64,000 nucleotides of DNA from positions 62,001-126,000 of the forward strand of contig JAQQAL010000008.1 in the NCBI GenBank assembly GCA_028532855.1, given 5' to 3'. Source of the stretch: Candidatus Thalassospirochaeta sargassi. GTDB lineage: Bacteria > Spirochaetota > Spirochaetia > UBA9216. Of the stretch, positions 9,625 through 12,273 are shown one piece after another. The translations under genes were made by a program, and so were the position numbers. Below the pieces are notes generated by a model. The model did no database searches. It had not been told where the DNA came from and saw only the letters and a program-made list of their open reading frames with translations. How positions within the stretch are numbered: the first letter of the stretch is position 1; each line of letters starts with the position of its first letter.

Positions 9625-9775
9625 GCACAGGCTGAATGGTAAAGGATATGTAAACAGATCGTAAACTCATCGTGATTAGAGGAGAATTCTATTGAATATT
9701 CAGGATTTTCGTGTGACAACGTGATAACGTTTAAAAGATTTAGTTTTCAGAATAAATGAAAACGGGAGGAAGGCT

Positions 9776-10504
9776 ATGAATTATGATTTTACTTTCGGAA
9801 GCAAAATTCAATGTTCCGAAAATGAAAAAAAACATTCACTTATACTTCTCAAGGAAATACTCGAACAAACAAAAAAAGCCCGAACTGCCGGTTTTCTGGT
9901 ACTGGGTCAGGATTCTGACTCTATAACCAACGCGTTCCTCAAAGACAGCGTTAAACTAATCGGAAAGGGTTATGACTATCAGGCTGTCGAGAAAATACTT
10001 GAGATTAAAATGGCGGTAAGAAACGCCGAAGGCATTCACCTACTGGAAATGGCAATGGTGAAAGAGGGAATCCTTTCGATACTGCGGGGGGATCCTGTAT
10101 CTCTGACAGAGGAGATTCTTTTTTCTTTTCTGGGAACAGCTATCTATGAGGCGCATAAAAAAGAACAAAACGATGAGTTTACACGACACATAATACAGCT
10201 ATCGCAGGGAGAGAGAACAGCCCGTTCTGAATGTGGATTCTGGCTTCTTAATGCGAGTGACAATGAAATAAGCTTTCTGCTGAAAGCCTTCGACTGGGAA
10301 TCTCTCGGTGTACTGATGAAGGTAGAAACAGACGCGGTGCTCTACCGGATTTACAGTAATCTCAGCAAGGAGGCTGGGAAACTTTTCCGCGAAAGGCTGC
10401 AGATGCAGAAAGCTCCTGATGCCAAAACCATCAATAGCGCGGAAAATAAATTCCGTACAATCACCGCCAAAATATCCGGCAGCAAAGAAACAGCTGCTGT
10501 ATAG
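9776..10504 (+). CDS. Soluble MotA-cytoplasmic-like / FliG C-terminal-like hybrid protein
   Basis: A 242-residue protein without membrane segments. Residues 30-120 resemble the cytoplasmic parts of the stator protein MotA: ARTAGFLVLGQDSD (35-48), then a GYDYQAVEKILEI helix, then AMVKEGILSILRGDP (93-107) and a following helix matching the MotA C-terminal tail, as if the last two membrane helices had been deleted. Residues 158-215 resemble the rotor protein FliG: LLNASDNEISFLLKAFDWESL followed by RIYSNLSKEAGKLFRERL, then a helix like the VEEAQ helix of FliG. The start has GGGAGGAAGG upstream. A terminator follows. Role unknown; a regulator or adaptor of the flagellar motor is a guess. Confidence 0.65.
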   Translation: MNYDFTFGSKIQCSENEKKHSLILLKEILEQTKKARTAGFLVLGQDSDSITNAFLKDSVKLIGKGYDYQAVEKILEIKMAVRNAEGIHLLEMAMVKEGILSILRGDPVSLTEEILFSFLGTAIYEAHKKEQNDEFTRHIIQLSQGERTARSECGFWLLNASDNEISFLLKAFDWESLGVLMKVETDAVLYRIYSNLSKEAGKLFRERLQMQKAPDAKTINSAENKFRTITAKISGSKETAAV

Positions 10505-10516
10505 TTCAATCATTAG

Positions 10517-10554
10517 AGCCTTTTTTATGACCGTAAAACGTGAAAAAGGCTTTT
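10517..10554 (+). terminator. Probable terminator after the MotA/FliG-like gene
   Basis: A 9-bp stem AGCCTTTTT with AAAAAGGCT around a 17-nt loop, ending in TTTT. It lies 13 nt after the stop and just before the helicase promoter. Confidence 0.6.
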
Positions 10555-10556
10555 GC

Positions 10557-10585
10557 TTGCCCCAAAACAATTTAACTGATAAAAT
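10557..10585 (+). promoter_or_regulatory. Promoter of the XPB helicase gene
   Basis: TTGCCC (10557-10562), 17-bp spacer, TAAAAT (10580-10585). The ATG begins 9 nt after the -10 box, so the leader would be 1-2 nt, and no Shine-Dalgarno is present. Confidence 0.55.
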
Positions 10586-10593
10586 ATCTGGCT

Positions 10594-12273
10594 ATGGCAG
10601 AAACCGACAGTAAACCTCTTATCGTTCAGAGCGACAGTTCTCTGATGCTTGATGTTCACCACGCATCATTTGAAAATGCACGAAACGACATTGCAGCCTT
10701 CGCTGAACTTGAAAAGTCACCGGAACATATTCATACATACCGCATTACTCCGCTTTCACTCTGGAATGCGGCTTCAGCGGGAATACCCGCGGATGAAGTT
10801 GAGTCCAGACTTTCACGCTGGTCCAGATTTGACGTTCCCGAAAACGTTCTGTTCTCCGTTCGTCAAACCATTAACCGTTTCGGCCAGCTTGTTCTGAAGG
10901 AGACGGAGAATCCGGATCTGCTTTTGCTCGAGGCGGAGAATCAGAATATAGTAGTAGAACTTGAATCACGCAAAAGCCTTTCCAAACTGCTTATGCGCGA
11001 AGGCGACGGTTTTCTTGTTAAATTAGTTGACAGGGGAACAGTAAAGGTTGAGTTGATTAAAGCCGGCTGGCCGGTAAAAGATATTGCCCCGCTGACTGAA
11101 GGCGAACCGCTTGAGTTCAGCCTGCGGGAACAGACCCTGGGCGGTAAAGAGTTCAGCATCCGGGACTATCAGATAGAGGCTGCGTCGGCTTTTTACGGCG
11201 AAGGTAAGCAGGGGTTCGGATTCGGCACAATTGTAATGCCCTGCGGTTCGGGTAAAACGATAGTCGGAATGAAGGCCATGGATCTCTGCCGGACAAACAC
11301 ATTGATCATCACAACAAATATTGCAGCCGTCCATCAGTGGATGAGGGAACTAATAGATAAATCAGCGATTGACCCGGAACTCATCGGGGAATATACCGGC
11401 TCACGAAAAGAGATAAAACCTGTAACAATTGCCACTTACCAGATACTGACATGGCGACCTGACAAAGAAAGCGAGTTTCCGCATTTCAAACTTTTCAGTG
11501 AAGGCGGTTGGGGACTAATAATCTATGATGAAGTTCACCTGCTTCCTGCTCCGGTGTTCAGGGTAACGGCAGAAATTCAGGCCGTAAGACGCATAGGCCT
11601 TACAGCCACCCTGCTTCGTGAAGACGGACGCGAGGCGGATGTATTCTCACTTGTCGGCCCCAAGAGGTTTGATGTTCCATGGAAGGAACTTGAAGCCAAA
11701 GGCTGGATTGCCGAGGCTGGCTGTAATGAGATTCGGGTTGACTTGCCTGAAGATCTGCTCATTCAATATGCCGCAGCGGACAAGCGGCAGAAATTCAGGA
11801 TAGCCAGCGAGAACCCACGTAAACTGGAGATAGTGAAGCAGCTTGTAGAAAACCATAATGAGGATATGATCCTGATCATCGGACAATACCTGAAACAGCT
11901 GCACTCCGTTGCAAAGATGCTCAAAGCACCCATTATTACCGGCAAGACACCGAACGCTGAACGCGAGGTTATTTATCAGGATTTCAGGGAAGGAAAAGTC
12001 CGCGTAATCGTTGTGTCCAAGGTTGCCAATTTCGCAATTGATCTCCCGGATGCCTCAGTCGCAATACAGCTTTCAGGAACCTTCGGTTCGAGGCAGGAAG
12101 AGGCCCAGCGGCTCGGCAGGATTCTGAGGCCGAAAGAACGGAACTCATGGTTTTATTCCGTTGTTTCCAACTACACCACAGAAGAAGTCTTTTCCGCCAA
12201 CCGTCAGAAGTTTCTAACCGAGCAGGGATATAAATACAATATTGAAATCTGGGACGATATAGTTGATGAATAA
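10594..12273 (+). CDS. XPB/Rad25-type DNA helicase
   Basis: A 559-residue superfamily 2 helicase like the bacterial XPB proteins of spirochaetes and mycobacteria. An N-terminal damage-recognition region (1-180) precedes the helicase core: RDYQ (190-193), Walker A MPCGSGKT (215-222), DEVH box (312-315), the XPB-specific RED motif (342-344), SGTFGSRQEEAQRLGRILRP motif VI. It is a 3'-5' helicase expected to open DNA in repair. The ATG has no Shine-Dalgarno and follows a promoter at leaderless distance. The next gene encodes its likely partner. Confidence 0.93.
   Translation: MAETDSKPLIVQSDSSLMLDVHHASFENARNDIAAFAELEKSPEHIHTYRITPLSLWNAASAGIPADEVESRLSRWSRFDVPENVLFSVRQTINRFGQLVLKETENPDLLLLEAENQNIVVELESRKSLSKLLMREGDGFLVKLVDRGTVKVELIKAGWPVKDIAPLTEGEPLEFSLREQTLGGKEFSIRDYQIEAASAFYGEGKQGFGFGTIVMPCGSGKTIVGMKAMDLCRTNTLIITTNIAAVHQWMRELIDKSAIDPELIGEYTGSRKEIKPVTIATYQILTWRPDKESEFPHFKLFSEGGWGLIIYDEVHLLPAPVFRVTAEIQAVRRIGLTATLLREDGREADVFSLVGPKRFDVPWKELEAKGWIAEAGCNEIRVDLPEDLLIQYAAADKRQKFRIASENPRKLEIVKQLVENHNEDMILIIGQYLKQLHSVAKMLKAPIITGKTPNAEREVIYQDFREGKVRVIVVSKVANFAIDLPDASVAIQLSGTFGSRQEEAQRLGRILRPKERNSWFYSVVSNYTTEEVFSANRQKFLTEQGYKYNIEIWDDIVDE

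Follow-up and report, generated by a model that had tools for sequence, protein, structure and literature searches.

A natural soluble protein of spirochaetes that fuses the cytoplasmic parts of MotA to the torque-helix end of FliG

On the forward strand of the window, by which we mean the full 64,000-nt stretch of DNA analysed here and within which the positions of the gene are counted, lies a gene for a 242-residue protein that joins parts of the flagellar stator and rotor. The gene opens with an ATG at 9776, 6 bases downstream of a Shine-Dalgarno-like element that was read directly from the sequence, its stop codon ends at 10504, and its parts are arranged as follows.

9764–9769, forward strand: Shine-Dalgarno-like GGGAGG
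9776–10504, forward strand: coding sequence of the MotA(cytoplasmic)-FliG(C) chimera, 242 amino acids
9833–10021, forward strand: residues 20–82, which match the cytoplasmic loop that connects TM2 to TM3 in MotA (phmmer, hhalign)
10034–10141, forward strand: match to the MotA C-terminal cytoplasmic tail, residues 87–122, MVKEGILSILRGDP (phmmer, hhalign)
10142–10243, forward strand: poorly conserved linker, residues 123–156
10244–10468, forward strand: FliG C-terminal (torque-helix) domain, residues 157–231 (Pfam, AlphaFold2/Foldseek, hhalign)
10515–10553, forward strand: stable, terminator-like hairpin 3' of the chimera stop (-16.8 kcal/mol, z -4.4)

The hairpin suggests that the chimera gene is its own transcription unit; it was not seen in the relative from genome G004. 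The gene lies outside any flagellar operon, and in all five sampled members of the genus an XPB-type helicase gene comes next. The helicase start follows 10–20 bases after a conserved TGATAA-type box (window 10570–10597, with equivalents at loci L005, L006, L116 and L117), as if, judging by this spacing, the helicase were transcribed almost leaderless in genus members. Because the hairpin follows the stop and a separate box precedes the helicase, we argue that the two genes are transcribed separately and do not use their proximity as functional evidence. Sigma-70-like promoters were set aside, as their frequency was no higher than in shuffled sequence.

The first half of the protein matches the NCBIfam MotA model PRK08124 (E 2e-8) and is aligned by phmmer with MotA 9lu9 in two separate collinear stretches, residues 24–85 on the loop (77–138) and residues 77–119 on the tail (203–245). 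Comparison by hhalign, with alignments drawn from the genus only, matches it to spirochaete MotA at 97.0% probability (P 8.5e-11), and the alignment skips 66 MotA columns precisely at TM3–TM4; the tail part abuts the loop part directly, with these two helices missing between them. TM1–TM2 are missing as well, so that all four membrane helices are absent and the chimera is left with neither an ion channel nor a membrane-held pentamer. A sequence-only reading of the same DNA had proposed, for residues 30–120, the two cytoplasmic pieces of MotA joined with the last two helices missing; the joining stood, whereas the span is about 20–122 and the loss extends to all four helices. The same reading took the chain to be soluble, and rightly so: no membrane helix is predicted and no stretch is hydrophobic enough to form one (maximum 19-residue Kyte–Doolittle mean 1.04; the MotA encoded in the same genome reaches 1.89). 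Like the MotA/PomA stator, the chimera has loop helices that bear the R90-type arginine, followed by a tail of the form 'EGILSI..GD.P'; unlike the stator, it has none of the four membrane helices and carries a fused FliG_C.

The second half matches Pfam FliG_C (E 1.4e-8; 35.4 bits, with the cut-off at 23.3) over residues 157–231, model positions 24–98, which bears out the assignment of residues 158–215 to the FliG C-terminal region. It also matches the Thermotoga maritima FliG C domain 1qc7 (phmmer) and, again by hhalign with genus-only alignments, FliG at 89.6% probability (P 1.9e-6). Both halves are thus significant in the profile–profile search proposed as a check, and controls with the halves swapped (MotA half against FliG, FliG half against MotA) returned 0.1% each. 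The proposed structural comparison could be made for one half: in an AlphaFold2 model built on an alignment of three close sequences, pLDDT is about 56–72 over the FliG half and a poor 26–43 over the MotA half, so only the former was compared. It has the FliG fold; the best 16 PDB matches found by Foldseek are all FliG, among them 1qc7_B (TM 0.80, rmsd 1.7, 82 columns) and 8ucs_H, the FliG of a MotAB-FliG complex (TM 0.80). FliG_N and FliG_M gave no Pfam match in the window protein at E up to 10, which leaves the chimera without the FliF- or FliM-binding part. It therefore shares with FliG the C-terminal domain match and fold, and differs in lacking the other two domains and, in the window's genus, in inverted charges at positions 281, 289 and 297. 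Matches to MgtE_N were left uncounted owing to the known distant likeness of that domain to FliG. Zorya, an anti-phage system, contains a MotA-like subunit; the window protein had no match among the PADLOC models.

Together, these comparisons show, with near certainty as to identity, a conserved natural soluble chimera of the torque-generating cytoplasmic domain of MotA and the torque-helix domain of FliG. As read from its sequence, the chain holds the two meshing surfaces of stator and rotor without the parts that anchor them, TM1–4 of MotA and the N and M domains of FliG.

The 3.8-Mb genome that carries the window has its ordinary flagellar genes elsewhere: FliG (349 aa) and MotA (260 aa) share a contig with further flagellar genes, and there is a second FliG, which has the N, M and C domains. 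The window gene therefore encodes an extra protein. Each of the five genus members sampled has the gene, with an intact reading frame and at 53–84% identity; it was not found in two other genera of the family, and a contig search for relatives yielded two close relatives only. Both halves are under strong purifying selection in all genus pairs, with pS of 0.79–0.87, near saturation, and pN of 0.09–0.36 over the whole gene.

Beyond the family, a profile built from the window's genus alone finds relatives with both halves in other families of the phylum, for example in genome G168 (E 9.6e-22, positions 1–209). A later profile, which includes the other-family relatives found in this way, separates 11 proteins with MotA and FliG parts in a single chain (from 10 of the 393 genomes sampled; 248–337 bits) from the best ordinary FliG (108 bits); these scores come from a profile that contains the fusion rows themselves, and the fusions were also found independently of it. 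The FliG_C halves of these one-chain proteins match Pfam at E 1e-9 to 1e-36 and their MotA halves match MotA models. Genomes with a fusion also carry ordinary FliG, and most flagellated spirochaetes among the 393 genomes have no chimera. All fusions occur in genomes with flagellar genes, and the 45 sampled genomes free of such matches have no fusion either, although at a fusion frequency of about 3% these 45 are too few to test co-occurrence with flagella.

The same two modules recur in several arrangements. In G315 and G251, a MotA-like domain is joined to FliG_C-like parts and a separate soluble MotA gene precedes; in G019 the order is reversed within 217 aa (NCBIfam fliG 6–97, E 5.6e-10, then MotA 113–177, E 4.8e-17); and in G218 (locus L130, 4272–6689, reverse strand) an 805-aa protein, likewise in reverse order, starts with FliG_C and continues with leucine-rich repeats and a pair of soluble MotA domains. 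In another family, three genomes have the halves as separate neighbouring genes: G354 has a series of overlapping genes, two for FliG M-C and one for soluble MotA; in G197, soluble MotA follows FliG M-C after about 50 bases; and the order in G280 is FliG_C, PcfJ-like, soluble MotA, FliG_C. Three of the roughly six genomes having only stand-alone soluble MotA have a FliG_C neighbour within two genes, where less than 1% is expected by a rough, post hoc estimate that takes FliG_C genes to number about five in some 2800. That the modules recur in either order and side by side as genes argues that the two modules belong together, and as judged from these arrangements their joining is clearly not accidental. 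IQ-TREE trees, built separately for the two domains, place native MotA on one side of a branch (89/78) and scatter the fusion proteins on long branches; they give no count of fusion events. Three fusion loci that appear independent of one another (two in G077, one in G198) have a gene for a methyl-accepting protein (MCP) within 1 kb, and another such gene is near the G168 orthologue; MCP numbers predict about 5% per locus, in a post hoc comparison, and the proximity weakly hints at chemotaxis or motility.

Related architectures were noticed alongside. A 654-aa protein (L110, G176:C31, 1967–3931, reverse strand) joins the cytoplasmic domain of FlhA, without the membrane part (FHIPEP at positions 314–654, E 7.8e-61), to FliG_C (E 7.3e-26), a further case in which part of a membrane-bound flagellar protein exists in soluble form with FliG_C attached; its genome also has a MotA-FliG fusion. 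FliM, FliG_M and FliG_C form a single 630-aa chain at L111 (G251:C27, 2049–3941, reverse strand), and in a 132-aa protein at L070 (G036:C120, 7034–7432, reverse strand) FliG_C (E 3.5e-14) comes after a DNA-binding domain of the MazE/AbrB type. Three MotA-like soluble proteins are encoded in tandem by overlapping genes at L064 (G086:C4, 6830–9234, reverse strand): a MotA-FliG fusion of 266 aa, a 157-aa protein and a 391-aa protein with degenerate MotA-like parts. A further three soluble MotA proteins at L068 (G197:C12, 6085–13681, reverse strand) have C-terminal tails with motifs like the FliM N terminus (SQDEIDALLGG, SADEIDELL), in a setting of BspA-like leucine-rich repeat genes and two more proteins with TQDEIDSLL or SQDEIDQLL. 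Motifs of this type serve FliM as a binding site for CheY-P. Soluble FliG_C genes repeatedly adjoin PcfJ-like genes in G280 and G197 (L067, L113 and L114).

How far the contact surfaces themselves are preserved depends on the lineage. In Escherichia coli, MotA R90 contacts FliG D288/D289 and MotA E98 contacts FliG R281 (PMC12505986). In the window's MotA half, the R90 equivalent is kept (R36) and the E98 equivalent is lost (G44); in its FliG half, E. coli K264, R281, D288, D289 and R297 correspond to K182, E199, E206, R207 and D215. All five genus members keep R90, have G, D or A in place of E98, and carry E/D for R281, R for D289 and D/E for R297, so that three charges are inverted. Most fusions outside the genus retain R90/E98 and R281/E288/D289; the pairs are kept in fusions of families f25 (three of four), f38, f46, f56 and f59, with R and E on one side and R, E and D or E on the other. 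Confinement of the inversions to one lineage points to one event or a linked series. The pattern shows a FliG-like domain that is maintained but rewired in the window's genus, and the protein should not fit the resident stator there in the usual way. With the torque-helix charges reversed and E98 lost, the protein is unlikely to act in this genus as a simple decoy for the resident interface. The sequence-only reading had suggested a motor regulator, clutch or assembly decoy; the architecture behind that suggestion is confirmed and recurrent, whereas the genus protein is unlikely to mimic the resident MotA-FliG contact faithfully and its gene sits beside a helicase gene rather than in a flagellar operon.

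The literature searched holds no described natural protein that joins soluble MotA and FliG_C. The earlier remark that no such protein was known holds to that extent, with two qualifications, an engineered construct and an NCBIfam family left without explanation. The construct, the nearest case, is C. sporogenes MotA(1-262)-FliG(239-333) (PMC11302681; PDB 8ucs), in which a linker joins the FliG C domain behind the MotA tail in the same order as in the chimera; in that cryo-EM study, FliGc fused to the MotA C terminus docks between adjacent MotA cytoplasmic domains (PMC11302681). It is man-made, keeps its membrane helices and was co-expressed with MotB, whereas the natural chimera is soluble. 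The family is NF047717 (LIC10244), an entry with no function attached, which matches the window's MotA half (E 2.4e-7) and the G168 fusion in one stretch over nearly its full length (10–237 on 9–241 of 252). LIC10244 of Leptospira is a cytoplasmic hypothetical protein that is raised in a perRA/perRB double mutant (PMC8638967). By these matches, the family is probably a relative of the chimera, and for the window protein a distant one at most, since it scores 30.4 bits against a family cut-off of 475. Functional analogues may be found in YcgR, a c-di-GMP brake proposed to straddle MotA and FliGC (PMC12713396), and in the EpsE clutch, proposed to break the FliG-MotA contact (PMC3000366). Like the chimera, both are soluble, and they act at the MotA-FliG contact; their folds (PilZ/YcgR_N and glycosyltransferase, respectively) are unrelated to it, and no homology was found. 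The novelty appears to lie in the architecture, a soluble stator-rotor chimera; the function is inferred.

Taking identity and mechanism jointly, we favour, at a probability of about 0.4, a cytoplasmic two-headed motor accessory that would serve as a brake, clutch or stator-recruitment factor. One head would recognize a rotor or stator partner and the other would contact, cap or compete with the opposite surface, and the protein could thereby tune torque, stator recruitment or engagement, with an outcome comparable to that of YcgR or EpsE. Given the reversed charges and the loss of E98, the FliG-like head in the window's genus most likely binds a different partner, not the resident stator canonically; this partner could be its own MotA-like head within an oligomer, or the native FliG ring. 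The motor-accessory reading has to contend with the gene lying in no flagellar operon and next to an XPB-type helicase gene (5/5), the inverted charges, the absence from most flagellated spirochaetes, and related architectures found with LRR, BspA-like or PcfJ proteins, which have no obvious motor role.

The main rival, a serious possibility that we hold at clearly less than even odds, is that the MotA-cytoplasmic and FliG-C domains have found a second use, as interacting partners within a cytoplasmic scaffold or signalling complex unrelated to the motor, binding each other or their homologues and leaving the motor untouched. What makes it the main rival are the FlhA-, FliM- and MazE-FliG_C and MotA-LRR architectures, together with the helicase neighbour in 5/5 genus members; it would also accommodate the inverted torque charges and lost E98, and soluble MotA beside PcfJ and BspA-like genes. 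Other families nevertheless keep the canonical interface residues, the partners of FliG_C are mostly flagellar (MotA, FlhA, FliM), and fusions occur only in genomes with flagellar genes, a pattern that the 45 match-free genomes are too few to weigh at the frequency of the fusions. An assembly or storage factor, which would bind stator or rotor subunits that are not yet assembled (or FliG rings that stators have yet to reach) and block premature contact in a chaperone-like manner, fits a protein that is extra to the normal motor genes and has precisely the two surfaces that complement each other, with neither a catalytic nor a ligand-binding domain; we consider it unlikely, as most flagellated spirochaetes assemble motors without the chimera, its gene lies outside flagellar operons and the charges are inverted in the window's genus. 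Far less probable still is a decaying relic or a chance, functionless fusion of duplicated motor genes: patchy distribution and drifted interface residues in the genus would agree with it, but low pN with near-saturated pS in both halves across all genus pairs, the intact reading frame in 5/5 members and the recurrence in both orders and as operons contradict it.

More broadly, and at slightly short of even odds, spirochaetes may carry an unrecognized class of soluble proteins built from the two mating faces of the motor and, among relatives, from cytoplasmic parts of FlhA and FliM. Its members would be either cytoplasmic regulators of torque and stator engagement or a second, non-rotary use of the interface, with the contact rewired by charge reversal in the window's genus. 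Both domain orders and the operons would follow if the MotA-FliG contact, the site where ion flow turns into rotation, is itself the working part. Spirochaetes, whose periplasmic flagella are unusual, coordinate motors at both cell ends, and the chimera is a candidate regulator of these motors. As a soluble protein of natural origin that unites the two sides of the contact, it is also a ready tool, a minimal and membrane-free version of the interface, and the chimera family an evolutionary record of which contact residues can be rewired.
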